Origin: a virus
Length of the DNA: 36,105 nt
IMG/VR virus record: IMGVR_UViG_3300022213_000175
Location: 1-36,105 of that record
Strand: one strand, 5' to 3'
A model generated the notes under the pieces. The model saw only the letters and a program-made list of their open reading frames with translations, did not search any database and was not told the origin of the DNA. Below, one piece after another: positions 7,681 to 35,114 of the stretch. Every line of letters starts with the position of its first letter. Positions within the stretch are counted from its first letter, which is position 1. The position numbers and the translations under genes are program-made.

Positions 7681-8349
7681 TCAGAGCGCCGCTTGCCACC
7701 CCACCCACTGCAACGAGCCCGCGGTCGCGTACCCGGCGAGGTCGTAATGCACTGCGTCGTTGAGCGTGATCCCCGTGTAGTCGGCAAGCGCGCGCGTGGC
7801 GCGAGCGGCGACCGCGGACACGTTCGCAGCGCGAATCACCGCGAATTCCGAATAGGACGCATCCTCAGTCCTCATGTTCTGAACCACGATCCGCACGTTC
7901 GGGAACGCTGCCTCGATCAGCGCGCACGTTTGCCCGATCCGTGCGGCATAGGCGGCGCTCTCCGCACCGTTCTGCGCGTCGTTCTCGCCGATCATGAGCA
8001 CGCACAAGGTGACGTCGCGGCGATCAATCCCGAGCGCGGTGCAGTCGGCGATGGCGTTCGGGAGCTCGGTCGTCTCCACCCCCGAGAGGATCTGACCGTT
8101 CGTCGCGCGGCGAATGATGGTCCCCGTTCCCATGTTCGCCGCGAGGTACGGGAGCACCCCCGGATCGGGACCGGTCCCGCTCGAGTCGGGCCATGCGGAG
8201 AGGTTGACGCCCCCGTCGCGGACGCTGATCCCCGCGGGGAGCGTGACCCCGCCATAGACGGTGTCCGTCGCCCCGACCCCATGGGCGATCGAGTGCCCGA
8301 GCACGAGTGCGACGCTCGGCGAGTCGGGCTTTGCACCCGCCGAGCTCAC
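7681..8349 (-). CDS. SGNH/GDSL-family hydrolase, 222 residues
   Basis: It starts at the GTG of a GTGA overlap with the upstream gene. The SGNH blocks are visible: block I GHSIAHG with nucleophile Ser20, an Asn-Gly near 84-85 as a possible block II, block III GEND with Asn123, and block V DAVH with Asp198 and His201 completing the catalytic pair. These enzymes hydrolyse ester bonds, often acetyl groups on polysaccharides. Its place directly after tail genes suggests a virion-associated esterase that trims host surface sugars, or a lysis enzyme. The Asp in the usual GDS motif is replaced by His, which occurs in divergent members. Confidence 0.75.
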   Translation of the reverse strand: MSSAGAKPDSPSVALVLGHSIAHGVGATDTVYGGVTLPAGISVRDGGVNLSAWPDSSGTGPDPGVLPYLAANMGTGTIIRRATNGQILSGVETTELPNAIADCTALGIDRRDVTLCVLMIGENDAQNGAESAAYAARIGQTCALIEAAFPNVRIVVQNMRTEDASYSEFAVIRAANVSAVAARATRALADYTGITLNDAVHYDLAGYATAGSLQWVGWQAAL

Positions 8350-9068
8350 GCGAAAGGGCCCGTCGTCCTCACCCTCCGCGAGTAGACCGACGCGGCGAGC
8401 GTCGGGGTCCCCGTCGTCACTGACACGTGCACGACCGCGCAACAGAATCGCCGATTCGCCGCCGCCCCGAGCGCCGCGGGAGCGGTGCCCGCGAGCACGA
8501 TCTCCCCCTGATCACTCGTCCGCTGCACCCGCCCGGTCACGCGGGGCACGCCGGCCGAGTCGAACGTGACCGAGCCGTAAACCTGGCTCGGTACGTTCGT
8601 GTTCGATCCGTTCGCGGCTGCGGTGACCGCTGCTCCGGTCGGGCCCGCCTGCGCTGCGTTGACTACGGTCGTGCTGTTCGGGTAGATAAGGAGCCCGGTC
8701 CCGTTCGCCGTGCCGCGTCCCGCGCTGTTCGCGTCCCGAAACCACGTCGCTAGGCCATACTTCGCGGTCGACAGCGGCATTGCGCCGATGTTCATGCACC
8801 ATTCGAACCGGTCCGTCTCGTCGGACCAATCCGGGTAAAGGTCGGTGAGGAGCACGTCAAAGTCGGGCGCAGTCTCTTGCCACCCGTCGTATTGCACGAC
8901 GTCGCCCGCCATCACAAACGTGAGCCCCCCCGAGCCATCGTGCGCGGTGCCCGTCGTCGTGCGGGCCCCCGGATCGTTGAGCGACCCCCAACCGGTGATC
9001 AAGTCGAACGCGGGGACCGAGGCGCCCCCTGCCAGCGCGACGGGCGCCCCCGTGAAGTAGCCCGACAC
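8346..9068 (-). CDS. Putative tail/receptor-binding structural protein, 240 residues
   Basis: It starts at GTG four bases after the upstream stop. The product is rich in Gly, Thr, Ser and Ala with short beta-type segments (DGSGGLTFVMAGDVVQYDGW ... FCCAVVHVSVTTG) and few charged residues, typical of beta-sandwich virion appendage proteins with a lectin-like fold. It sits between the tail-hub gene and the SGNH hydrolase, so these may form a tail-tip host-recognition set. There is no specific family match. Confidence 0.5.
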   Translation of the reverse strand: MSGYFTGAPVALAGGASVPAFDLITGWGSLNDPGARTTTGTAHDGSGGLTFVMAGDVVQYDGWQETAPDFDVLLTDLYPDWSDETDRFEWCMNIGAMPLSTAKYGLATWFRDANSAGRGTANGTGLLIYPNSTTVVNAAQAGPTGAAVTAAANGSNTNVPSQVYGSVTFDSAGVPRVTGRVQRTSDQGEIVLAGTAPAALGAAANRRFCCAVVHVSVTTGTPTLAASVYSRRVRTTGPFA

Positions 9069-9072
9069 GGGA

Positions 9073-9381
9073 TCAGCCCGGACCGACGGAGGACATTGCG
9101 GTCACCTCGACCGAGGCGCTCGTCGCGGCGCACGCGAGACCAAACTCCCCGCGGCGGATCGCCCGCACGTGCTCGACCCCCCCTTTGAGCGTCTCGTAAG
9201 CGCTCCCGAGGCTCGCCGCGTCGGTCACGTCGCCGAGCTCGAGGTACAGGTCGGAGGCACAGAAAAGCCGATACCACTTCGGCGCCCCCGTCGTCGGGGC
9301 GAGGTAGCGCCGCACCTTGTTTGCGGTGCTTTCGCTCGTGTCGATCGACGGTACGTTGATGACGAGCTGTTTCGCCGCCAT
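9073..9381 (-). CDS. Small tail-region protein, 102 residues
   Basis: The ATG has a GGGGGGT ribosome site. The product (AAKQLVINVPSIDTSESTAN...) is a mix of strands and helices without a known motif. It has a Trp-Tyr-Arg cluster near residue 36 and a Gly-rich end. By position it is probably a minor virion protein or an adaptor for the following beta-rich protein. Function unknown. Confidence 0.55.
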   Translation of the reverse strand: MAAKQLVINVPSIDTSESTANKVRRYLAPTTGAPKWYRLFCASDLYLELGDVTDAASLGSAYETLKGGVEHVRAIRRGEFGLACAATSASVEVTAMSSVGPG

Positions 9382-9399: not shown

Positions 9400-10944
9400 C
9401 TACCTCGGGACGCGGAGCGTGATCGTCGTGCGGTCCGCGGCGAGTCGCGGAGGCGCGACGATCGTCGCGAGCTTGCTCGTCCATCCGCGTTCGTCGTCGG
9501 TGATCCGCACGGTGTCGCCCTCGCGGAGGTCGAACCGCATTCGATCGACCACCGCGTACCGGGTGACGAGCGCGGGGATCGCCTCCCGCGCGACCCGATC
9601 CTCGAGCACGCGGAGCACGGTCCCCTCGTCCCAGGTCCAGTCAATGACCTGTACCCCCCGTGCCCGGCGCAATCCGAAGCGCGCGCGACTATCCGCGCAG
9701 ATCCCCGACCGGATCACCGTGACCGACTGGCTCGAGGTCGATCCGGGCTCGGCGGTGAGCGGGACAGAGCTCGCGAGCTCGCGCGCGCTCACTCCGCCGG
9801 TGACGACGACCCGAGCGCGGTACACGCCCGCCCGATCTTCCCGGTAGTCGGCGGTAAACTCGTTCGTCGGTCCGGGGGTCTCGGTGCGGACCGTCGACGC
9901 CGCCTCGAGGTGACGCCCGGTCGTGAGCTCGGCGACGACGCGAGCGCCCGAGGGGGTCCAGTCGCGCCCGACGAGGTAGCGGCGACCGGTGGGCCCGATC
10001 CGGACGACGACGGGCAGGTCGGGGAGGAGCACGCTCTCGAGCCACGTCCAAGCGTCGGACATCGGCTGATCAATCCACGTGTCGACGAGGTAGGCGGAGA
10101 GGAGCTCCTCGACCTCCGCGGCTCGGTCCCACTCGAGCGTATCGGGCGCCCACCGCCGACACAGATAGGTGACGACCTCCCATGCGGATCGCGGTCCGCC
10201 TCCCGTGTCCGGGTGAAACCCCGCGAACAGCGATCGCGCGTCGGTGGCGGTGGCGGGGTAGCCGGTCGCAGAGTCGGCGAACGTCGCCGCACGGACGCCC
10301 TTCCCGAGCAGGTCGACCTTTCCCGCGACGGTCTGATCCGCCTCCCCGACGGTGACGTCGTTGCGTATCCGGCACCCGGTGAGGTCGAGGTCGGGATCCT
10401 CGGACACGATCGCGAGGGTGTCCGCCCGCGTCGCAGACCATTGCGCGAGCGCGACGGGAACGACCGGGTACGGGGTCGCGGTCCCCTCGTAGCCCGGGAA
10501 GCCGAAGATCACCGGGTACGCGACCCCCTCGTCGCCGAGCGTACCGGTGACGGGCCACGTGAGCGCCCCCGCGCGAGAGAACGCATCGGGGACCGGGAGC
10601 CCGACGACGAGCTCCGAATCCGAGTCGATCTTGCAGCGCATCGGCTGATCGTCCGTGTCGTATTCGACCTCGACGAGCGCACCCGCGAGCACGACGAGCG
10701 CCTCGTCGTAGGTGGTGCCCGCGAGCCACCGGCGGAGCACCGCCCGAGCCCCCTGCATCCGGGGCGCGAGCGACGTCCACGCCGCCCGAGCGTCTTGCAC
10801 CTGGATCGCGATCCGCTCCGCTCCATCCTCGACCTCGAGATCGGAGAGCCCGGGCCGGTAAATGTGCGTCGCGTCGACCTCGATGCGATCGACCGACCAC
10901 CGATACGTGCGCCCCTCGACGACGATCTCGAGCAACCAATGCAC
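9400..10944 (-). CDS. Putative tail hub / baseplate-type protein, 514 residues
   Basis: The GTG at 10944 was chosen because a GGGAGGT ribosome site sits six bases upstream; a longer frame from 11004 is Arg-rich and lacks one. The N-terminus (HWLLEIVVEGRTYRWSVDRI) and the central part are beta-rich. The C-terminal end contains REGDTVRITDDERGWTSK, a GD-V-x-I-T-type segment common near the end of siphophage tail-hub proteins that follow the tape measure. The length of about 500 residues fits. It lies downstream of the 1089-residue tail protein and after the large non-coding repeat region, so it may have its own regulation. Specific family not confirmed. Confidence 0.5.
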   Translation of the reverse strand: MHWLLEIVVEGRTYRWSVDRIEVDATHIYRPGLSDLEVEDGAERIAIQVQDARAAWTSLAPRMQGARAVLRRWLAGTTYDEALVVLAGALVEVEYDTDDQPMRCKIDSDSELVVGLPVPDAFSRAGALTWPVTGTLGDEGVAYPVIFGFPGYEGTATPYPVVPVALAQWSATRADTLAIVSEDPDLDLTGCRIRNDVTVGEADQTVAGKVDLLGKGVRAATFADSATGYPATATDARSLFAGFHPDTGGGPRSAWEVVTYLCRRWAPDTLEWDRAAEVEELLSAYLVDTWIDQPMSDAWTWLESVLLPDLPVVVRIGPTGRRYLVGRDWTPSGARVVAELTTGRHLEAASTVRTETPGPTNEFTADYREDRAGVYRARVVVTGGVSARELASSVPLTAEPGSTSSQSVTVIRSGICADSRARFGLRRARGVQVIDWTWDEGTVLRVLEDRVAREAIPALVTRYAVVDRMRFDLREGDTVRITDDERGWTSKLATIVAPPRLAADRTTITLRVPR

Positions 10945-10960
10945 GACGACCTCCCGCCAC

Positions 10961-10968
10961 AGACTACC
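10961..10968 (-). promoter_or_regulatory. Candidate -10 element before the tail-hub gene
   Basis: On the leftward strand CGGTAGTCT lies just upstream of the ribosome site of the hub gene and resembles the GGTA-N3-T motif seen elsewhere in this genome. With the non-coding array behind it, a separate promoter here is plausible. Confidence 0.3.
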
Positions 10969-11020
10969 GCGACGAGGCGCTCGTCCGCCCCGCAACGGTA
11001 GCACCTACGTTTCACGGCGA

Positions 11021-11039
11021 CCCGCGCCGGAGGCGCGGG
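11021..11039. terminator. Strong GC hairpin (8-bp stem, 3-base loop)
   Basis: CCCGCGCC-gga-GGCGCGGG is a perfect inverted repeat at the downstream edge (for leftward transcripts) of the non-coding array. No T-run follows on either strand, so it could be a pause, a processing site or an RNA structure rather than a simple terminator. Confidence 0.4.
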
Positions 11040-11040
11040 C

Positions 11041-11305
11041 GAGCGCGTGTGGAACGTTTCGGGTCAACCGTCGCGTCGGTTGCTCCCGAGCGTTTCACGA
11101 CGAATTGCGATCGTGTCCGCATGGACGTTTCACGGCTGCACCCGCGTGAAACGGGCGTCGTAGAGCGTGTGGAACGTTTCGGGTGTTCCCGTCGTCGACG
11201 GTTGCCTCCGCGCGTTCCACGGGCGATCCGCCGCTCGGCGGTGGGCACGTTTCACACGTGACCCGCGTGAAACGGGCGTCGTAGAGCGTGTGGAACGTTT
11301 CGGGT
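11041..11305. repeat. Non-coding tandem repeat array with CGTTTCAC boxes
   Basis: Two units of 122 and 121 bases (11041-11162 and 11163-11283) and the start of a third (11284-11305) are visible. Each unit begins with GAGCG(C)GTGTGGAACGTTTCGGGT and ends with ACCCGCGTGAAACGGGCGTCGTA. Each contains an inverted repeat, CGTTTCAC ... GTGAAACG, at 11126-11133/11146-11153 and 11248-11255/11267-11274. Further CGTTTC boxes lie at 11008, 11055, 11091, 11175 and 11296. The middles differ in sequence but both can fold (for example CAACCG/CGGTTG at 11065-11082). The repeat length shifts reading frame, so it is not a protein repeat. The rest of the gap to 11442 shows no gene. Confidence 0.75.
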
Positions 11306-11442
11306 GCTCTTGTCCGATCCGGTCGAGGTCGACGTCTGCTCAGCGTTCCCGCCGTGTGCCGCGCGCGGTCGGGCCCCGGGTCGAGAGAGCGGGCACCCGT
11401 CTTGCCTCTCCGCAATCCCCTAACGGTACGCGGCACCTCGCC

Positions 11443-14400
11443 TCAGCAGAGCTCGTCGACGGTGAGCGCTCCGACGGTAACGATCTCGTTCGTGCCCTCG
11501 GTCCCGAGCTTGCCGGTGATCGCGAGCGAATCGGTGACGACGCGCCCATAGACGAAGTCGTCGAGGCCAATCAGCGTCGAGCCCGAGCTCGTCGGAAGGC
11601 GGGGCACGACACACACGGGGACCTCGCCCGAGTCGACCACGTCGAGGAGCTCGGGGAGCGCTGCCGCGTCCTCTCCGGTCCCGATCGGGATCCCGCCGGA
11701 GATCGCGACGTAGCTCTCGGGCTCGCGGAGCTTGCGCGTGTCCTGATACTCGGGCCATGAATAGGTGATCCGCCGCGCGGGCGGTCCGAGCTCCCGAGCG
11801 GAGCTCACCCCGTCGCTCGAGATCGAGCGACGGACGAACGCGCGGCGCTCCCGGGTCCACCCCCATGCAGGTTCGGCGCCGAGCCCGAGCACGCGCCCGA
11901 TCGATAGGATCCCCGCACCATACTTGCTCGACGGGGAGGTCACCGAGGCGGTCGCGCTGATCCGCACGTAGCGCCGCACCGTGAGCGCGGACGGGTACAC
12001 GACGAGGAGCCCGCGGGGGCTCACGATCCGCAGGTCGCTCCCCGAGCTCGGGAAGCTCCCGATCGACGCGAGGGTGATCCGGAGCGGTTGGCGGGTCGCG
12101 CTCTGCGATCCCCAGAATCCGGCGCTATTCGCAAGAATGTTCACCGCGACGCTGTTCGATACGACGTAGCCCCCCGCGAGCTCGTTCTCGGCGAAATAGC
12201 GCGAGCCCTGCGTGCCGCCGTTCGCCGCGACGACCGACCCCGTGCGCGTGTAGGTGAGGCTCGAGCCTACGGTCAGGTCGAGGGTCCCGAGCGTCGTCCA
12301 TCCGGTCGACCCGTCGTCGGTCTCGAGGAGCCATTGATGCGGCCGCGCGCGGAGCGCGAGCAGCGCGATCCCGTCCCCGTACCACTCTGCATTGTCGAGA
12401 TCGTACACGAGCAGCGGTTGCGAGTCGCCGGTCGTGCGCCACGAATCCCGCGGCGAGGGCGACTGCGTCGGGTGTATGGCCTTGATCGGCCACGCATACG
12501 AGGTCGCGAGCGTCGTCGTCTCCCCGAGGTAGGTGGGCCCCCCGGTCGCGGCAATGAGCCCGAGCTCCTCGTCGTCGGCGGTGAGCTCGGGGACCGGGTA
12601 GGGGTTCGCTCTCCCGGGTACGGGCTTGCCGTAAGTATGCCCGCGGGATCCGGCGCTGTAGGCTTTCTCCCATTCGTCGGTCGATTCAATGGAGTGCTGC
12701 CACTCCCCGCCGAACGCGACCCCGACCCACCGGATCGCGTGCGTGCACGTCCCCGCGTGCGTCGCACCGTACCCCCACAGCACGCGATCGAGCGTCGCGA
12801 CCGCCCCGCTCGAGACGGAACCCCCCGTGCCCTTCGTCCACGTTTCCGCGAGATCGCCGGTCCCTTGCGTGTACCACCATTCCACTTTCCCCGCGGTGAG
12901 CATGACGCGGATGCGGGTCCACGTGAGGTTCCCGCCTCCGTCGGTCCCATTCATCGTGAGCGCGATCGACTCGATCGTTGCGCCGCTGTTCGCATTTTGC
13001 AGCGCGATCCCGTCGGTGCAGAGGTGCACGAGCACCTCGTACTCGTAGGTGGAATTGTCCGAGAGCCGAATGCTCGCCCCTGCGTTGAGCGCTCCGACCC
13101 CGAGCGCTTGCGCCCGCGTCGCGCCCGCGGTCACGTAGGCCTCGATCTCGAACATGACCGAGCTGTGCGCCACGGTCGCGGTGTAGCTCCACGTGTAGCC
13201 GCTCGCGAGCCCCGCGTTGAAATAGAGCGCGTCGTACCCGGCGGTCGACAAGCTCGGGAGCGTCGTCGTTGCGACCGCCGTCCACCCATGGTGATGCGGG
13301 TAGGCGATCGGGTAGTAGAGCCGCGACTCGATCGTCGTCGCGGGTGCGGAGGCGCCCCACGCCGCGCGGAGCTCGTGCGTGATCACCGTGCCGAGCGCCC
13401 CCGGACCGTGCGCGACCTGACTCCACCCACCGAGGCGAAGGACCCCGAGCACGTTGTCGGTGCTCGTGCTCCCCGGGCTGATCCCGTGCCCGACCAAGTA
13501 GACAGCGCCCGCCGCGGCGCACGCCCCCTGCCACTCGAGCCAATCGGTCGTCGTGTTCGGGTATGTGACCTCGCACGTGTATTTTGCCCAGGTCGCCCCC
13601 CCGTCGAGCGACCGATAGCACGCGAGATCCTCGTATACCGTCGCGGTCACGATCCGGGTCGCGTACAGGTAGATGACCCCGTCTGCGTCGACGACGGGGA
13701 CGACGACCTGAGCGTCGCGACCCGAATCGACGACAATCGCGGCTGCGTCCGCAAAGTCGCTGCGTGCGGAGGCGAGGAGGCGCACCTCTGGCGCCAGCGT
13801 CGAGGGGTTGACGTAGGCGACGAGAAAGTGTGATCCGGTCCACACGGGCCAATGCGCCGTCCCCGACAACGATGCGTTGACCGAATCGAAGGAGGCGCCC
13901 GCGGTGCTCGACGCAAACTGACTCGAGGTGCCGCTCCCGTCGGTCTCGTCGGTCGTGATCATGAGCCAGTCGAGCCCGTTCGGCCGATACGCGACGCGGA
14001 TCGCCCCAAACTCGAAGCTCGGCTGTGAGCTCCCGCCGAGCACGAACCGCGAGAATCCGGAGAACGTCGCCCCCTGATCGGTGGAGTAGAACGCGGCTTG
14101 ACGTAGGCCCGTGTTCGCAGACAGCCCGGAGTACAGGATCACCCGGTCGTTGCCCTCGTCATACACCAGACCGATCGGCCCCTCGAGCCCCGGAGCGTTC
14201 GCCGAAAACGTCGCGCCATCGGTCCACACGCCCGAGCGGGTGTCGTAGGACCAGACGCGACCGGTCTTTGCGCTGTTGTCCACCGCGGCGAGGACGATGA
14301 TTCCGTCGGGGAGCGCGCACGCCGCAACGCCGGTCCACGAGACCGAGCTCCCGAACGTCCCCGTGGCGCCCGCGCTGATCCCGCCGGAGAATCCGGTAAC

Positions 14401-14712
14401 GATGTTCGGGTCGTTCCATCCCCGATAGTCCGTCGACGCGGTGTCGTCGGCGAGGCGATACGCGATCTCGGCTCCGCCGGCACGACCCGCGTACCCGCCG
14501 CGCATCGTGCGCACGAACAGGTCGACCGACTGCGCACGGCTCACCTGCGGGCGCCACGTCGAATCGGTGTCGGTCGGGACCGGTTGCCCCGGTTGGGACC
14601 CGTCTTGCGTGTAGGCGCTCGAGCGGGTCGCGACCCCGATCGCGGCGAGAGCGTCGGAGTCGTGTCGCGCCTCGAGCACTACCAGACCGAATGTCGGATC
14701 GTCGCGTCCCAT
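11443..14712 (-). CDS. Large tail protein with sialidase-type Asp-box beta-propeller, 1089 residues
   Basis: The ATG lies just after the stop of the tape measure gene. At least two Asp-box motifs are visible (YSTDQGATFS near residue 229 and YRSLDGGATWAKY near 370), the hallmark turns of sialidase/BNR beta-propellers. The remainder is Gly/Thr/Ser-rich beta-type sequence with a laminin- or concanavalin-like look near 500-650. A long protein directly after the tape measure is usually part of the distal tail, so it is probably a tail-tip or adsorption protein that binds surface sugars. Sialidase catalytic residues are not evident, so binding is more likely than cleavage. Confidence 0.6.
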   Translation of the reverse strand: MGRDDPTFGLVVLEARHDSDALAAIGVATRSSAYTQDGSQPGQPVPTDTDSTWRPQVSRAQSVDLFVRTMRGGYAGRAGGAEIAYRLADDTASTDYRGWNDPNIVTGFSGGISAGATGTFGSSVSWTGVAACALPDGIIVLAAVDNSAKTGRVWSYDTRSGVWTDGATFSANAPGLEGPIGLVYDEGNDRVILYSGLSANTGLRQAAFYSTDQGATFSGFSRFVLGGSSQPSFEFGAIRVAYRPNGLDWLMITTDETDGSGTSSQFASSTAGASFDSVNASLSGTAHWPVWTGSHFLVAYVNPSTLAPEVRLLASARSDFADAAAIVVDSGRDAQVVVPVVDADGVIYLYATRIVTATVYEDLACYRSLDGGATWAKYTCEVTYPNTTTDWLEWQGACAAAGAVYLVGHGISPGSTSTDNVLGVLRLGGWSQVAHGPGALGTVITHELRAAWGASAPATTIESRLYYPIAYPHHHGWTAVATTTLPSLSTAGYDALYFNAGLASGYTWSYTATVAHSSVMFEIEAYVTAGATRAQALGVGALNAGASIRLSDNSTYEYEVLVHLCTDGIALQNANSGATIESIALTMNGTDGGGNLTWTRIRVMLTAGKVEWWYTQGTGDLAETWTKGTGGSVSSGAVATLDRVLWGYGATHAGTCTHAIRWVGVAFGGEWQHSIESTDEWEKAYSAGSRGHTYGKPVPGRANPYPVPELTADDEELGLIAATGGPTYLGETTTLATSYAWPIKAIHPTQSPSPRDSWRTTGDSQPLLVYDLDNAEWYGDGIALLALRARPHQWLLETDDGSTGWTTLGTLDLTVGSSLTYTRTGSVVAANGGTQGSRYFAENELAGGYVVSNSVAVNILANSAGFWGSQSATRQPLRITLASIGSFPSSGSDLRIVSPRGLLVVYPSALTVRRYVRISATASVTSPSSKYGAGILSIGRVLGLGAEPAWGWTRERRAFVRRSISSDGVSSARELGPPARRITYSWPEYQDTRKLREPESYVAISGGIPIGTGEDAAALPELLDVVDSGEVPVCVVPRLPTSSGSTLIGLDDFVYGRVVTDSLAITGKLGTEGTNEIVTVGALTVDELC

Positions 14713-21257: not shown

Positions 21258-22229
21258 TCACGCGTCGCTGATCAGCGTGATCCCCGCCTCGACACCCTTC
21301 GCCCATGCCATGTACGCGTGGCTCACGAACGCGGTCTCAGCCGAGAACGCGTCGCGCGATCTCTCGAACAGGATCACGCCCGCGTTGCCCTCCTCGGAGT
21401 TTCCGCCGACGAGCACTTGGTTGTTCGGGTCGTCGACCCCGCGGACGAACATCCCGAGGCACCCGATCACCCCGCCGCTCGCGAACAGCGCACCGGCCCG
21501 ATCCGCAGCCGCGTTCGCCGTCTTGACGCGGTTGTTTCGGAACCAATCGACGCCGAGCCACGACCCGACGTAGCCCGTCCCCTGCAACGTCTGCATGGCG
21601 GCGAGCTCGGCGCTGTAGTTCTGCGTCCCGCCACCGGCGGACCCGATCGAGGTGCCCCCGTCGACGATCAGGTCAGACCACTGTTGCCCGTGGATCACGC
21701 CCATGAACGCGGGACCGGGGAGATTGCCCACCGCCCCCGCCCCGATCAGCGCCATGACCGACGCCACGTCGAGATCGGTCCCCGTCCCCGGTCCGCTCTG
21801 CGTCGAGAACCCGTCGATCACGTCGCAGATCAGGTCGGTCGCCCGACTGTTCATGCTCTGCACCGCGTCAAGCGCGAGGATGTCCGCGTCGATCCGCCCG
21901 TCGGGGAGCGTCATGCGGGCGAGGTCCGTCCACCCGTAGGCCTTCGTGTAGCGGGTGACCGTGAGGGTCGAGCTCCCGTCGGTGAGCGCGGTCAACGGGA
22001 CGGTCGACCCGTCGGCGAGCGCCGCGGGGAGGTCGTAGCTGTTGAGCCCGACGTGACTCACCTTGCGCGTCGCGGACCCGATCGCGTCGACGGGCTCCGC
22101 CATGAAGATCGCGGGATGCCGCGGGATGTTGTTTCGCTCGGCGAGGAGCAGGATCACCGCAGGATCGAGCACCTCGGAGGTGAGCAGGTCCGACAACGAG
22201 CTGTAGGTATTTGCGTTCGGTGCAGCCAT
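21258..22229 (-). CDS. Major capsid protein, 323 residues
   Basis: It follows terminase, portal and scaffold genes, the canonical place for the coat protein. The ATG at 22229 has GGGAGG nearby; an upstream in-frame extension is rejected as it lacks one. The N-terminal helix region (YSSLSDLLTSEVLDPAVILL), the segment AYGWTDLARMTLPDGRIDAD and the beta-rich C-terminal half are typical of the coat proteins of HK97-fold phages. Length of about 320 fits a coat protein with a separate scaffold protein. It has its own 196-base leader with a possible hairpin. Confidence 0.75.
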   Translation of the reverse strand: MAAPNANTYSSLSDLLTSEVLDPAVILLLAERNNIPRHPAIFMAEPVDAIGSATRKVSHVGLNSYDLPAALADGSTVPLTALTDGSSTLTVTRYTKAYGWTDLARMTLPDGRIDADILALDAVQSMNSRATDLICDVIDGFSTQSGPGTGTDLDVASVMALIGAGAVGNLPGPAFMGVIHGQQWSDLIVDGGTSIGSAGGGTQNYSAELAAMQTLQGTGYVGSWLGVDWFRNNRVKTANAAADRAGALFASGGVIGCLGMFVRGVDDPNNQVLVGGNSEEGNAGVILFERSRDAFSAETAFVSHAYMAWAKGVEAGITLISDA

Positions 22230-22338
22230 GGCCGACGATCCTCCCCCGTGGAATGGACCGGGAGCCCGACGACCGACGTCACCCCCGGGTCGAGGGGGCA
22301 CCTCGCCGACGATTGACAGCTCGTCGTGGCTTAGCCCC

Positions 22339-22354
22339 GGGGGAGGCATCCCCC
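22339..22354. other. Hairpin in the leader of the capsid gene
   Basis: GGGGGA-GGCA-TCCCCC forms a 6-bp stem with a four-base loop between the scaffold stop and the capsid start. The 196-base leader (22230-22425) shows no convincing gene. A promoter-like GGTAGCTT lies near its beginning on the leftward strand. The hairpin could limit read-through or stabilise the capsid mRNA. Confidence 0.35.
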
Positions 22355-23114: not shown

Positions 23115-24563
23115 CTATGCGCTCGCGCGCGTCGCGCCTCTGTCCATCTCCTCGAGCTCGCGTCGAGCCTCCTCGAGCGAGAGATCGTGGATCACCGAGT
23201 ATGCTCGCTCGCGCGACGTGAGCCCCTTGTCGAGTAGCTCGAGCTGGTCACGTCGACGCGCGTCCTGCTCCTCGGGCGTGAGCGGGAGCCCGAGATAGCG
23301 GACACTCCACCCCGATTCGGGGAGCTCGACCGCGCGCTCGTCGTCGAACCCCCCCTCAGGATCGTGGAGGTGCGTATTGAGCAGCGCCGCGCACATACCG
23401 AGGAGCTCCTCGTCGCCCGCGCGGAATTGCGGTTCGAATTTCCGCGCGGCCGCGCGCTGCCCGTCGCGGCTGATCGCCAGCGCGTAGCCCGACCGCGGAT
23501 CGCCCGAGGTGCGAATGAAGTCGGGATCGGTGACCCCGACGTAGGCGGCAATCCGCGACTCGAAGATCATGAGCGCCTCGGCGAGCGCGAGCGGATCGGC
23601 CCCCGGGGCAAACTGTCCGGGGGGCGTCGGGGACGCGCCCGCGTCGGGGTTTGAGCGCGTCAGGCGGAGGAGCACGGTCGGGTCGGTCACGATCCCCTGA
23701 CGTGCGGTGCCCGGAGGCCCCTCGGTCGTCGCTGCCTTGACCTCGAGGTCGATCGCCCACCGCTGAGGCCAGCTTGCATCCCGCACGCAGTGACCCCAGA
23801 ACGTCCACAGCACGCACGACTCGAGCGTCGCCTCGTAGAGCTCGCGCAGCTCGCTCCAATCCCACAGCTCGCCGGTGGGTGTCGCGTGGTAGAGCACCGC
23901 GGCGAGGTACGGATCGCCGCGGCCCCCGTCCCACCGGTACGGGTAGCGCTCGCCCGAGGCGCCCGAGCCGAGCGCTTTCGCGGTGATGACCTCGCCTTGC
24001 GCGTCGACGACGCGGTATTGCTCTTTCTCGGGGTCGATCTCGTCATAGGTCCATTGCCGCACGCCCGCGACCTTGCGGATCCGCGCCTCCCGCAGCGTCC
24101 CCGGGCGGTCGGGCTCCTCGTCGTGCGGCTCGATCTCGCACCGGTCCGGGAACACGGGGCGGATCGTGAGACGCCCGCGGCTCGTAATGTCGGGGCGCAC
24201 GAGCATTTCACGGATCCCGATCGTGTCCCGCTGGATCCGCTGCATCTTGCTCGCCCACAGCGATTCGGAGAGCTTGACGGTGAGCCAGTTTGCGAGGCTC
24301 CCGTCGGTGTCGTCGGGGTGCGAGAGTCGAGGTGCGCGGTCGTAGAGAACCGCGGTTTGATGGCACACAGACCGGAACGGATTCGCGGAGAGGTCGGGAT
24401 AGCCGACCGCCTCCCGCCGGATCGCTCCGAGGCGCGCGCGGATCCGGCGGATGGCGTCCGCCTCCCAATCCCCGTAGAGCAGTCGTCGTCTGGCGCGCGC
24501 GACCTGCACCCGACGCGTATCGCCGAGCGTCGGCTCGCCGAGCGCCCGATCGGCGCCGATCAC
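23115..24563 (-). CDS. Portal protein, 482 residues
   Basis: It starts at GTG a few bases after the terminase stop. It opens with an acidic/basic N-terminus and a helix-rich region (RRRLLYGDWEADAIRRIRAR), then a central mixed part (RCEIEPHDEEPDRPGTLREA). A long helical segment (LALAEALMIFESRIAAYVGV) followed by an acidic loop (TDPDFIRTSGDPRSGYALAI) corresponds to the stem and crown region of SPP1 gp6-type portals. It ends with a Glu/Arg-rich tail. Portals form the twelve-subunit gate for DNA packaging. Context between terminase and scaffold is decisive. Confidence 0.75.
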   Translation of the reverse strand: MIGADRALGEPTLGDTRRVQVARARRRLLYGDWEADAIRRIRARLGAIRREAVGYPDLSANPFRSVCHQTAVLYDRAPRLSHPDDTDGSLANWLTVKLSESLWASKMQRIQRDTIGIREMLVRPDITSRGRLTIRPVFPDRCEIEPHDEEPDRPGTLREARIRKVAGVRQWTYDEIDPEKEQYRVVDAQGEVITAKALGSGASGERYPYRWDGGRGDPYLAAVLYHATPTGELWDWSELRELYEATLESCVLWTFWGHCVRDASWPQRWAIDLEVKAATTEGPPGTARQGIVTDPTVLLRLTRSNPDAGASPTPPGQFAPGADPLALAEALMIFESRIAAYVGVTDPDFIRTSGDPRSGYALAISRDGQRAAARKFEPQFRAGDEELLGMCAALLNTHLHDPEGGFDDERAVELPESGWSVRYLGLPLTPEEQDARRRDQLELLDKGLTSRERAYSVIHDLSLEEARRELEEMDRGATRASA

Positions 24564-24566
24564 CGG

Positions 24567-26066
24567 TCACCCGAACACGACGTCCGGGCTCGGTCGGCTC
24601 GGTCCACTCCCGAATATGTAAGGGTCGACCCCGTATACGATGGCATCGATCGGATCCTTGTATTCGTTGTCCCGAAGATCGTATCGGTCCATAGCTGCGA
24701 TGACCCGCACGCACCGCGAGTGTACGCCGAACCCGCCGGGCTCGCACGTGCGGTGGTAGAGCCACCGCGACCGGGTGCCCGCCGATCCCGCTCCTCGACC
24801 CGTACCGCGCTTGATCGTGCGGATCGGTGGGTAGAGCTCCTCCCCCGGGCGGAGCTCCCCGCGACGCTCGAGCTCGCGGGTCACGTGCGACGCGAGCTCG
24901 CGGTTGCTCTTGCTGTGCGGAGCGCCGGGCTCGTGCACCCGGTCGCCCCCGACGAACACGAGATCGCGCCACTTCACCCGGTGGCGCTCGAGCATGGCGC
25001 AGATCCCCCGCGCGTCGTCCTGCGGGGTCGCGGTGCCCGCTGGATCGGTGTACTCGTCGAGCACGTACAAACGCCACGGAGATTCGGGGCGCTCCCGCCA
25101 CAAAGCGATCAGCACGGCGATTTGCTTGCCGGGCTTGTGCCCGTGGTCGAGCCCGAGCACGAGGTCGACCTCGCCGCGCGGCACCCGGGAGTGCACGTGC
25201 GAGTCACCGCCCCCGTTGCGAAACTGTGCGAAGTAGCGCCCGACGCTCCGCGTCTCCCACTCCCCATAGACGACGACGGGCACCTCGTGCGCGGGGCACA
25301 GTCGGATCCGCTCGGCGATCCACGCTGCGTCTTTCGGGCGACCGTCGCGGGTGCGGAGCGGCTCGGTCGCGCCGAGCGGGACGAGCTGCTCGGGCGTGAG
25401 CGGGGTCCAATGGTCGTGCACCGCTCCCGACTCGCACAGCTCGCGGAGGTAGCCGACCGGAGCGTTCAACGGGGTGAACGAGAGCAGCACGACCCCGCCG
25501 AGCTCCTCGACCCGTTGCATCGATTCGGTGAAATGCCGTTGATGGCGCGGGGGCTCGTCACACGTGACCCCCGAGAGCGTCGCCCCCGCGAAGTCGAGCG
25601 CATCTTGTTTGCCCGTTTTGATCCGGAGCACGCTCCCGTTTTTGAACAGGACGACCGGCGCATTCACGGGGCGGAACCCCCGCACCTCGTCAAACTCCGT
25701 CCGCGGGTCGAGCTCGTCTTTTGGGAGGAGCTCCCACAGCTTCTTCATTTGATCGACGGCGTTGAAGCTCTGTAGGACGAGCCACCAGTCGACCGGCGGA
25801 GGCGGGACAACGAACCCCTCGGAGGCGAGGGGGTGCACCCCGCGGCAATAGCCGATCGTGAGCCCGAACGATGCGGTCGTCTTGCCGATCGTCTGGTTCC
25901 CCGCTCGGATCGCCTTGAAGGGGTACGCGTCCGCGAGGAATTCGTATTGGAGCGGGAGCCACGCAATCTGTGCCACTGGATCCCGCTCCGCGCGCGCTCG
26001 GAGCTCGTGAGCGGCGGTGACGCCGCGCACGAGTCGTGCGCGGAGCTCGGACCCGTCGAGTGTCAC
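24567..26066 (-). CDS. Terminase large subunit, 499 residues
   Basis: The GTG start forms a GTGA overlap with the upstream gene. The ATPase domain shows Walker A AGNQTIGKT (residues 55-63, Lys62) and Walker B VTCDE (Asp170, Glu171). The nuclease domain shows the RNase H-type acidic residues: Asp307 in LGLDHGH, Asp375 in FVGGD and Asp474 in KDPIDAIVYG. The enzyme cuts concatemeric phage DNA and drives it into the head through the portal. Length is normal. No small terminase subunit is recognisable next to it. Confidence 0.9.
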   Translation of the reverse strand: MTLDGSELRARLVRGVTAAHELRARAERDPVAQIAWLPLQYEFLADAYPFKAIRAGNQTIGKTTASFGLTIGYCRGVHPLASEGFVVPPPPVDWWLVLQSFNAVDQMKKLWELLPKDELDPRTEFDEVRGFRPVNAPVVLFKNGSVLRIKTGKQDALDFAGATLSGVTCDEPPRHQRHFTESMQRVEELGGVVLLSFTPLNAPVGYLRELCESGAVHDHWTPLTPEQLVPLGATEPLRTRDGRPKDAAWIAERIRLCPAHEVPVVVYGEWETRSVGRYFAQFRNGGGDSHVHSRVPRGEVDLVLGLDHGHKPGKQIAVLIALWRERPESPWRLYVLDEYTDPAGTATPQDDARGICAMLERHRVKWRDLVFVGGDRVHEPGAPHSKSNRELASHVTRELERRGELRPGEELYPPIRTIKRGTGRGAGSAGTRSRWLYHRTCEPGGFGVHSRCVRVIAAMDRYDLRDNEYKDPIDAIVYGVDPYIFGSGPSRPSPDVVFG

Positions 26067-26344
26067 CCGTGCCCCGCAATGGAGGCGCGCCTCTGTAGGC
26101 GCGCGCCGATGGTCTCGAGCCCGCGATTCAGCACCGCGGCGAGCGCCGTCACTTGCGACATTTCGGGCGGGCACGTGAGCCGCTCGATCTCGTGCACCGC
26201 CCCGCTCTGCATGGTCACGATCGGGTGCGGGAGCACGACCGACCCGTCGACGACCGCCGGGCTCTCGACGATCGACTCGATGTGATCCGGACACAGCCCG
26301 ATCACGCGCCCGTCTTGCAGCTTCACCGCGAGCACGATCAGCAC
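26063..26344 (-). CDS. Small SwrD/FlbD-like protein, 93 residues
   Basis: The GTG start has GGAGG six bases upstream. Residues 1-50 resemble the bacterial SwrD/FlbD family, whose pattern is L-x-G-x-x-F-x-x-NPDHIE-x-IEE-TPD followed by a short strand. Here it reads KLQDGRVIGLCPDHIESIVES, then a hydrophobic strand and IVTMQSGAVHEIERL. FlbD/SwrD proteins act on flagellar function in bacteria; a role in a phage is not known to me. It lies directly before the large terminase gene with a four-base overlap. It could alternatively be an unrelated packaging accessory protein with chance similarity. Confidence 0.45.
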   Translation of the reverse strand: MLIVLAVKLQDGRVIGLCPDHIESIVESPAVVDGSVVLPHPIVTMQSGAVHEIERLTCPPEMSQVTALAAVLNRGLETIGARLQRRASIAGHG

Positions 26345-26937
26345 ATTGCACCTCCGCCGCGCGAGCCCCGCGCAAGCTCCGCATAGTAGCCTCCGCCGTG
26401 CTCGTGTCCCCACACGGCGAGACACAGCGCGTCGACGACGCCCTCGCGCCGATCTTTCCGACGCGGAAGCTCGAGCTCAGGCCAAAGAGCGGCGACGAGC
26501 TCCGCCGCGCGCGCCTTCGCCGCCTCCCGCCCCTCGAGCTTGTCGGCTCGATCGCGCTCTCCGCGCTCTCCGCGGGCGGGGGCGGTGCCCTTGCGCCGCC
26601 GAGCCAGGTCGAACAGGTCGCCGTGCCACTTGTCCCCGGTGACGTGCTCGATCCCGAGCTCGTATCGACGCGCGGCGAACGCGCAGAGGAGCGCTCCGTA
26701 CCCGCTCCCGTAGCGGAACGCCCCCGCGGCACCCATGCGCGGGTATGCGTGCGCGAGCTCGAGCACGGCGAGGTGCGCCGGTCGGCGCTCGAGCTCGCCG
26801 AGCAAGGCCTCGAGGTCGAGGTCGCCCCTCACGGTGAGCGGGAGATTGCACGCGTGGCTCACGCACAGCCCGCGCGGGAGGCTCTCGACCCATGCGAGCC
26901 CCCCGTGTTTCCCCGGATCGGCGCCGACCACAATCAC
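26338..26937 (-). CDS. RuvC-like Holliday junction resolvase, 199 residues
   Basis: The fold is RNase H-like. The first strand has Asp7 in GADPGKHGG, the second catalytic region Glu60 in LAVLELAHAYP, and the C-terminal acidic cluster Asp162/Asp169 in KDRREGVVDALCLA. These match the acidic residues of RuvC and of phage crossover junction endonucleases. The enzyme would resolve branched DNA made during replication and recombination before packaging. It lies between the recombination module and the terminase. The start GTG overlaps the upstream TGA. Confidence 0.75.
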   Translation of the reverse strand: MIVVGADPGKHGGLAWVESLPRGLCVSHACNLPLTVRGDLDLEALLGELERRPAHLAVLELAHAYPRMGAAGAFRYGSGYGALLCAFAARRYELGIEHVTGDKWHGDLFDLARRRKGTAPARGERGERDRADKLEGREAAKARAAELVAALWPELELPRRKDRREGVVDALCLAVWGHEHGGGYYAELARGSRGGGAMC

Positions 26938-32963: not shown

Positions 32964-33947
32964 CTATCGTCGCACGCGAGAGGGGTGCAAGGCCACCCAG
33001 CGATCACGCGCCACGGTGAGCGCGCGGGTCACATACCGGCGACGGACCCCGTCCGGAGCGTCCCAACCCCGCCGCACCGTCCCGTCGACGGTCCGGTGAC
33101 CGCGGGCGAGGGTGATCCACCGGTCGACGAGCCATGCCGAGCCGCACCGGTAGGCCTCGAGCACGACCGCGAGCTCCCGGTCGGGGGTCTCCTCGAGCTC
33201 GGCGAGCATCCGCTCGGCGAGCGACTCGACCACCGCTCGGCGCTGCTCGAGCGGGGGCGGGGTGTCGCCCCCCTCGAGCGAGGTCGCGCCGAGCAATCGC
33301 GGCTGCTCGGTCGCGGGCGCCTTGCGGGCGGCGACCGCCTCGAGCTCGAGGAGGACGAACGGGTCCAGGGTATCACCGTCCGGATAGCTCAACGGATCGA
33401 TCTCCTCCTCGGGGCTCTCCGGTGAGCCCCCCCCCTCGGGGGGGTCGGGGGGGATCTGGTTGATCTGATCCCTCGTCTGATCGGGTGCCGCTGTGGCACC
33501 CTCGGGGTGCCGCTGTGACACCCTAGCCCGGAGCTGCTCGGGTGCAGGCTCCTCGGGGGCTCCCGTTTCGAACGAGGCATCGAACAGCGGGCCCGTTGGT
33601 CGGGGGGGGGTGCGCACCCGTACCGCTCTCACCCGGTAGACGGTCGACGAGCGAGGCGCGCGGAGCTCACTCAGCCATCCCGCCTCGACGAGCCTCCGGA
33701 GCGCCCGTTGCGCCGTTCGGAGCCCGACGTGCGCCGCGGCCGCCAACCGCGGGATCGCCAACCAGCACGCGCCCTCGCACCCCGACGCCCTCCGCGCGAT
33801 CACCCCGAGCACCGCGATCTCGTGCACGGTGAGGTCGGGATCGCGCTCCGCGGCGAGCTCTACGTCGAGCGCGCTTGGTATTTCGCGGCGACCGTGGTAA
33901 TCGTTGCTCGTGCAGCGGTCGGGCGTGGCGGTCGGGGCGCTGTGCAT
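32964..33947 (-). CDS. Putative replication initiation-type protein with winged helix, 327 residues
   Basis: The ATG has GGAG seven bases upstream; longer frames lack a ribosome site. Residues about 36-105 form a winged helix (LTVHEIAVLGVIARRASGCEGACWLAIPRLAAAAHVGLRTAQRALRRL is the region at 40-87, shown in parts: VHEIAVLGVI, AIPRLAAAAHVG, TAQRALRRLVEAGWL). This layout is usual in phage replication initiators such as O-like and DnaD-like proteins. The middle is Pro/Glu-rich and disordered, and the C-terminal part is helical with a Trp-rich patch (GSAWLVDRWITLARGHRTVD). It faces a large non-coding region that may hold the origin. Transcription regulation instead is possible. Confidence 0.55.
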   Translation of the reverse strand: MHSAPTATPDRCTSNDYHGRREIPSALDVELAAERDPDLTVHEIAVLGVIARRASGCEGACWLAIPRLAAAAHVGLRTAQRALRRLVEAGWLSELRAPRSSTVYRVRAVRVRTPPRPTGPLFDASFETGAPEEPAPEQLRARVSQRHPEGATAAPDQTRDQINQIPPDPPEGGGSPESPEEEIDPLSYPDGDTLDPFVLLELEAVAARKAPATEQPRLLGATSLEGGDTPPPLEQRRAVVESLAERMLAELEETPDRELAVVLEAYRCGSAWLVDRWITLARGHRTVDGTVRRGWDAPDGVRRRYVTRALTVARDRWVALHPSRVRR

Positions 33948-34093
33948 TGTCGTCTCCGTTCTGGTTCTGGTTCTGGTTTTGGGTGAGGGTGTCCGGTCGG
34001 GGTCGTGCTTGAGACGCACGACCCCGCCCGGGGGCCCCAACGAGTGAGGGGGCTCGCTCCCGCGCGGCTGATCACGACCGCTGCGGTGGGGCG

Positions 34094-34101
34094 ACTGTAC
34101 C
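34094..34101 (-). promoter_or_regulatory. Candidate leftward extended -10 element
   Basis: On the leftward strand CGGTACAGTCGCC matches GGGTAGAGTCGCC at 2189-2201, including the CGCC after the motif. It lies about 150 bases upstream of the replication-type gene and may start its transcript. Confidence 0.35.
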
Positions 34102-34259
34102 GCCGCGGTGAGCGCGCGGGAAGTGCCCCGCCGCAATCCGACGCACGAGCTCGCTCGGCACGAGCCGGTCGGCGATCCCCTGCTCGTGTGTTCAGGCGAT
34201 CGCCGTTCGGCGCGCGCGGTTACACGTCGGTTTTTCGCGTGACCTTTCGTGGCGTCCCG

Positions 34260-34268
34260 TGGTAGGGT
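34260..34268 (+). promoter_or_regulatory. Candidate extended -10 promoter for the rightward block
   Basis: TGGTAGGGT lies 43 bases before the ATG at 34311. GTGACC stands 18 bases upstream as a possible -35. It is the best promoter candidate in the window because the gene behind it also has a strong GAGGAGG ribosome site. Confidence 0.45.
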
Positions 34269-34310
34269 GTGTGTGTCGGTGGCAGACAGCCGCGCCACCG
34301 AGGAGGCACC

Positions 34311-34601
34311 ATGAACGCAACGAACGAGACCCCGCGCACGTCCGAGAGCTTCACCGTCACCGCCGAGCTCGTCCCCGGGTGCATGATCGACGGACGGTTC
34401 GTCCCCGCCGGTCACGACACCCGCGAGATCCTCTCGGCGACCGAGAGCTCCCCGAGCCTCGCCGCACGGATCTGCAAGTGCCGCGCGTTCGGGCGCGCGG
34501 GTTGGACCGCAGCGGTGTTCGGCGCGTGCGAGGTTCGCCTCTCGACCGGCGACGTGTCGCGCGTCGCCGCCGAACACGGGATCACTGTAACGACCGATTG
34601 A
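34311..34601 (+). CDS. Hypothetical protein, first gene of the rightward block, 96 residues
   Basis: It has a strong AGGAGG ribosome site and a candidate promoter. The product is a mixed alpha/beta protein (ESFTVTAELVPGCMIDGRFV ... CKCRAFGRAGWTAAVFGACE) with a CKC pair and a Trp near residue 64. It may bind nucleic acid or metal, but no family is recognised. The first gene after a strong promoter is often expressed early in infection. Confidence 0.55.
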   Translation: MNATNETPRTSESFTVTAELVPGCMIDGRFVPAGHDTREILSATESSPSLAARICKCRAFGRAGWTAAVFGACEVRLSTGDVSRVAAEHGITVTTD

Positions 34602-34703
34602 CCCCCGCCTCGAGGCTCCCGCCTCGGGCAAGATCCCACCCGAGCGGCGGGGGGCACTTCGCTCCCCGTCGCTCTCCCCAACCCTCGACGGAGTGAAACG
34701 AAC

Positions 34704-35114
34704 ATGCAGGTAGAGCAGCTCGAGCGCGAGCTCGAGATCGCGAGTGACGGTCAATACGTGTGGGTCAACCGCGGTGGCTTGATGGTCGCCCGGTACGGCC
34801 CGAGGGGCAATGAGATCGCCGATGGCGGTCTCCATGACTATGCTGTGCGCGCCGAGCCCGCGTCGCCCGAGTCGTTCAACCGGTGGTCGATCGCGGTGCA
34901 CGAGATCCTCGGGATCGCCATCGGCGAGACCCACCGCCCGATCGCCGCGGGCGGTCGGGAGCTCCCCGAGCTCCCCGCAGAGGACACGATCCCGATCGCC
35001 GATCCGGTCGTGGTCCGCCCCCGGACCGGTCTCGTCGTCGCGGTCGTCGTGGTCGGCGGGGCGCTCCTCGTCGCGGCGATCCTCGCCCTCGTGCTCCTCG
35101 GAGGTGCCCGGTGA
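34704..35114 (+). CDS. Small protein with C-terminal membrane span, 136 residues
   Basis: Residues 1-100 are soluble with a helical start and a beta-type part (DGQYVWVNRGGLMVARYGPR). Residues about 107-131 are strongly hydrophobic (TGLVVAVVVVGGALLVAAIL) and end in a Leu-rich stretch, a single span. Its GTGA overlap leads into the next membrane peptide. It may be an envelope protein. No family recognised. Confidence 0.55.
   Translation: MQVEQLERELEIASDGQYVWVNRGGLMVARYGPRGNEIADGGLHDYAVRAEPASPESFNRWSIAVHEILGIAIGETHRPIAAGGRELPELPAEDTIPIADPVVVRPRTGLVVAVVVVGGALLVAAILALVLLGGAR

Follow-up and report, generated by a model that had tools for sequence, protein, structure and literature searches.

What is half a kilobase of organised non-coding DNA doing between two genes of a phage late operon? 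Late operons are tightly packed, and such DNA in the seam between genes amounts to a clean natural insertion. The question is raised by a single metagenomic virus record, linear and possibly incomplete, whose full 36,105 bases are here called the window. The phage genome is GC-rich, and its late genes lie on the - strand, with the tail genes running down to about 5.9 kb. The terminase (24567-26732) is recognised by a gene order conserved with relatives and by the faint similarity that the terminase of a relative shows to annotated phages. Its open reading frame has a codon score below those of its neighbours and carries about 220 extra N-terminal residues that are common to no relative; the gene probably starts near 26.05 kb. 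On the same strand lie a portal-like gene (23115-24563) and a capsid gene identified with Pfam (21258-22349); near the end of the late operon, at 7681-8442, there is a gene for a GDSL-type lipase/acylhydrolase (Pfam E 4e-8). The names "tail" and "portal" are based on position, and the gene map is rough.

Two late genes on the - strand border the insert. The upstream one (gene 1; 11443-14712), in the tail region, encodes 1089 amino acids with a BNR/Asp-box hint below the cut-off, and its stop is at 11443. The open reading frame of the downstream one (gene 2; 9400-10944) opens at 11004. Nevertheless, its likely true start is a GTG at 10944, behind a ribosome-binding-like GGGAGG that lies inside the insert. 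In the alignment of relatives, the N-terminus VHWLLEI at this position matches MTHWLLEV and VTHWLLEM of two relatives (G010 and G021), in both of which the start codon of gene 2 overlaps the stop of gene 1. From the stop at 11443 to the likely start at 10944 there is a gap of 498 bp (10945-11442), the sole one above 100 nt between 5.9 and 26.7 kb on this rough gene map. This bears out the claim, made in a preliminary description of this DNA, that the array interrupts a dense late operon. The same description had called the array non-coding. In effect, phage-like codon use is absent from all frames across the insert; scores are near zero or negative, the best being +4.2 and +1.9 bits, compared with +249 and +497 for the neighbouring genes. 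Together with a unit length that is not a multiple of three and thus shifts the frame, these scores rule out a coding array.

Is this gap a general feature of such phages? Relatives were traced through the terminase, with one 5-kb contig first and then 18 and 80 loci with alignments, and their tail regions were fetched. The flanking gene pair is found side by side in 23 relative records, with roughly 23-30% identity for those aligned; these records include near-duplicates of one lineage (for instance, G005/G007 and G034/G035). When the junctions are read from stop and candidate start codons, the two genes overlap or touch in 22 of the 23. In these, the possible start of gene 2 falls from 4 nt before to 2 nt after the end of gene 1, and the usual stop/start is GTGA, TGATG, or TAATG. 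The array is absent from the junction in all 23 records, no box clusters were found in the relatives, and a long non-coding gap at this place is seen only in the window, where it fits exactly between stop and start. As the genes of the relatives touch or overlap and only the window has a long gap, the array appears to be a private insertion; judged by this comparison of sequences, the insert is real and lineage-specific among the sampled phages. Parsimony favors an insertion over a 22-fold loss, although the insert could be old within a clade outside the sampled relatives. The preliminary description would have given up its proposal if absence from close relatives came together with no transcript, no skew change, and no protein binding; absence is indeed seen, but for distant relatives only. 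In the 23rd record (G027; L160, G027:10200-10800), and in this one alone, a 46-codon open reading frame lies between both tail genes with TGATG at both sides: another lineage, too, has an insertion at this seam.

The array itself occupies 11007-11350 and consists of three tandem units of about 120 bases, made of oriented 8-base inverted boxes that are denoted, on the + strand, F (CGTTYCAC) and R (GTGRAACG). Unit A (11007-11124), a diverged copy, has boxes at 11008 (F), 11049 (R), 11055 (F'), and 11091 (F). Those of unit B (11125-11246) are at 11126 (F), 11146 (R), 11169 (R), 11175 (F'), and 11213 (F), and those of unit C (11247-11350), which is worn at its 3′ end, at 11248 (F), 11267 (R), 11290 (R), 11296 (F'), and 11344 (worn F). 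Two full units of 121 bp and the start of a third had been described within 11005-11305. The tandem arrangement holds, but the units are three, the third being worn at its far end, and the span had to be corrected because unit C continues to the worn box CGTTCC at 11344. Spacings of 120 and 121 nt separate the direct repeats (11020-11073, 11140-11193, and 11261-11314), and the array ends about 60 nt before the start of gene 2.

Within the units, R and F' overlap by two bases and form the near-dyad GTGGAACGTTTCGG, in which GTGGAACG overlaps CGTTTCGG. A 45-nt core, ACCCGCGTGAAACGGGCGTCGTAGAGCGTGTGGAACGTTTCGGGT, reading ACCCG...CGGGT on the + strand, is identical in units B (11140-11184) and C (11261-11305). 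Unit A keeps both ends of this core, while the middle is replaced by CCCGCGCC-GGA-GGCGCGGG. An inverted repeat CGTTTCAC-N11/12-GTGAAACG had been ascribed to each unit; it is present in B (N12, 11126-11153) and C (N11, 11248-11274) but not in A, where the same replacement removes the GTGAAACG arm and the first box faces GTGGAACG at 11049 instead. All three units have the 20-nt run GCGTGTGGAACGTTTCGGGT in common, the longest stretch that they share without a difference (column-shuffle p 0.0003), and the stretches between cores are alike only in part.

The density of the boxes is far above chance. With one mismatch at most, CGTTTCAC is found at 10 places within 11008-11297, and the insert has 14 places with the relaxed 6-mer CGTTYC/GRAACG. 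Within 300 bp, 10 boxes of the CGTTYCAC/GTGRAACG type cluster together, and 200 first-order Markov simulations of the window never gave more than 2. The observed count agrees with the at least nine CGTTTC-type boxes within 300 bases reported earlier. Thirteen strict boxes exist in the whole record, so that 10 of them share this one cluster, in both orientations; the sole other exact CGTTTCAC in the genome is at 34693.

Perhaps, then, the array gathers recognition sites that act in cis within the late operon. This is the reading placed first, tentatively and with less than even confidence; a structured RNA and a landed repeat share the second place in a rough order that reflects judgements and not measurements. 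In a site cluster, a DNA-binding protein of the phage or the host would recognise the near-dyad core and the single boxes beside it, assemble along the array, and alter transcription through the late operon. The bound array might be a roadblock or terminator, or might provide a regulated internal start from which the downstream tail genes are expressed. In relatives, the overlaps suggest translational coupling, and such control would take its place. The array may have arrived as a mobile repeat or by local amplification. Besides box density and the placement of the insert, two observations are consistent with this reading. First, gene 2 has its own GGGAGG within the insert, which suggests that the overlap was replaced. 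Second, the 20-nt run stays identical in the three units, while the RNA arm that could pair with the 3′ part of the run is altered, with mispairs, in units B and C. Since the run is kept although its possible pairing partner changes, sequence, more than pairing, seems to be conserved, an argument that draws on three copies from one array. Nevertheless, no promoter-like site was found nearby in a search limited to the sigma-70 consensus, which is a weak test. As the state before the insertion is known from relatives, the effect of the insert on expression of the downstream tail genes is directly testable. If the array binds protein, it would add a compact new case to the regulatory or decoy arrays of phages.

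Known phage site families resemble such a cluster in part. The 17-bp repeats of Cluster O mycobacteriophages are also short dyad sites of unexplained function, thought to bind a dimeric protein; yet they are 7-3-7 perfect dyads, with more than 30 copies genome-wide in all five cluster members, whereas the array is one clustered locus of tandem units in one lineage (PMC4351075). The extended start-associated sequences of Cluster K, also unexplained, likewise place inverted repeats, separated by a variable spacer, directly before the start of a phage gene, but they recur at many genes and are accompanied by a 13-bp start-linked motif (PMC3203893), and the array is found at one gene, is multi-unit, and ends about 60 nt short of the start. 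Finally, the stoperators of Cluster A are repeated sites that, as the array might, stop transcription inside operons. They are, however, asymmetric, oriented with transcription, and scattered (as contrasted in PMC4351075). The array boxes, in both orientations and mostly in one cluster, lack this dispersal and single orientation, as well as the genome-wide scatter usual for operators in general.

A doubtful but still sizeable share of belief goes to a structured RNA. It would be transcribed either as part of the late mRNA or on the + strand, in antisense to that operon; each unit would fold into hairpins closed by the F and R boxes, and the product might be a small RNA, serve as an attenuator, or mark a site of mRNA processing. 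The hairpins of unit A (GTGGAACG...CGTTTCAC, 11049-11098) and unit B (GTGGAACG...CGTTCCAC, 11169-11220) fold strongly (z -4.3 and -3.9); by strand, z is -5.3 as + strand RNA and -3.1 as - strand RNA for unit A, and -3.3 and -3.1 for unit B. In addition, G-U pairs accommodate the T/C box variants on the + strand, where the - strand would have A-C; the + strand of the array is also rich in keto bases, and the GC skew of the array is reversed relative to its surroundings. Covariance folding of the units, suggested in the preliminary description, gave a divided answer: consensus pairing on the + strand reaches 95% with two double-sided changes, which fits RNA and speaks against a pure site cluster, but 46 of 500 shuffles did as well, a weak covariation from three copies of one array. 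The interior of the hairpin also loses strength along the array (z -4.2, -1.2, and +1.0 in units A, B, and C), and the second hairpin of unit C is no better than shuffles. By folding energy, the array ranks 4 of 61 among genome windows on the + strand and 13 of 61 on the - strand. It is thus no outlier in this GC-rich genome; fold energy was rejected as proof of RNA, and its ordinary value sits well with recognition sites in DNA. No Rfam 15 family matched the window above its gathering threshold, the only hit being a chance-like MIR1437 at E 0.39. A covariance model of the units, run over the window and 51 relative loci, scored well only on the array (best other E 0.1), and a tRNA or tmRNA was rejected as its identity.

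Held to be just as doubtful as the RNA is a non-autonomous mobile or host-derived repeat of the REP/BIME kind, landed in the phage with little effect on it. A BIME module has two direct REPs with one inverted between them (PMC2817692). The array is similarly intergenic, with short palindromic inverted units in alternating orientation, head-to-tail modules, and differing inter-unit segments; the F-R-F order recurs in each of its three units, and the insert is lineage-private and placed exactly between genes. By contrast, it lies in a phage at a single locus, with no copy elsewhere in the record, and lacks the canonical GTAG-type head with a 20-30-nt REP palindrome. The record carries no Y1 transposase (PF01797), although a host-encoded one is possible. 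A 17-nt piece of the core has 25 scattered single matches in 84,980 species genomes, none with a box cluster around it, by exact pattern. Neither an 18-mer of the core nor the box architecture F-N-R-N-R matched any of 2.9 million viral contigs, again by exact pattern, so that diverged arrays could be missed; annotated phages gave array matches only at E of 2 and above. A candidate flanking direct repeat (CCC..AACGGTA..GCACCT) was discarded, as 10% of random pairs are as good. In the search for a host, for which composition had given Myxococcota as a first guess, the terminase profile had no match in 298 Gemmatimonadota and 396 Actinomycetota genomes. Scans of viral contigs with single proteins, those of the two tail genes and the capsid, also gave no match. 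If the array is a landed host repeat, it would document the entry of REP-like elements into phage late genes.

An unlikely reading is a phage-borne DNA sponge or nucleoprotein platform. Here, an acquired tandem array of about 14 sites, once replicated, would titrate a DNA-binding protein of the host or of a rival phage, or would take over from the gene overlap as a switchable block of the late operon.

Origins, packaging loci, and attachment loci typically carry arrays of short inverted sites. A function of this kind, of which an iteron-type origin and a packaging site had been proposed earlier, is nonetheless improbable. The array is private and absent from the junction in the 23 relative records, which makes a conserved origin or packaging site unlikely; it is also about 13 kb from the terminase, and the GC skew does not switch there at the kilobase scale. 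Iterons are expected at an initiator gene and kept in relatives, and the array lies about 22 kb from the initiator-like gene (32964-34934, with an HTH_36 domain). Inside that gene there are two copies of a 22-bp repeat, each nearly dyad (GGGTGCCGCTGTGRCACCCTCG, 33483-33524), a plausible iteron-type origin and a better candidate than the array. For an attP of a temperate phage, with arm-type sites around a core, an integrase would be expected; no tyrosine integrase domain was found, and serine integrases were covered by Pfam scans of called genes.

Least probable of all is a guide-RNA array of the CRISPR or TIGR kind: the identical 45-nt cores are separated by differing segments of about 76 nt, and TIGR arrays of phages likewise have tandem units with conserved motifs around variable, sometimes palindromic stem-loop parts (PMC12045711), but the "spacers" share boxes and much of one arm, the unit of about 121 nt is over three times longer than the 36-nt TIGR guide RNAs and lacks their 9-nt dual-spacer layout, the Nop-domain Tas protein (PF01798) is absent from the record, and Pfam scans of called genes found no cas gene.

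Further identities were tried and rejected. CGTTTCAC resembles the first 8 bases of the consensus for Mu transposase ends, but no 22-bp stretch of the array matches that consensus better than 13 of 20, and random places score higher. ECF sigma promoters with a GGAAC box showed no consistent -10 spacing by eye, and a diversity-generating retroelement was dismissed in the absence of an array copy from neighbouring genes. Other 8-mer hot spots in relatives, such as those formed by a 12-bp tandem repeat (L168) and by CTGTCCAC sites (L170), proved unrelated to the array. The former belongs to relative G013, which has two tandem arrays of the GACGCCACAYGG type with a 12-base period (L168:7918-8170 and 8970-9170) that would read in frame as repetitive peptides. 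The latter, in relative G016 (L170:6130-6440), is a cluster in which CTGTCCAC sites of either orientation surround an AT-rich stretch ahead of a gene, and looks like an iteron-type origin or an operator region.
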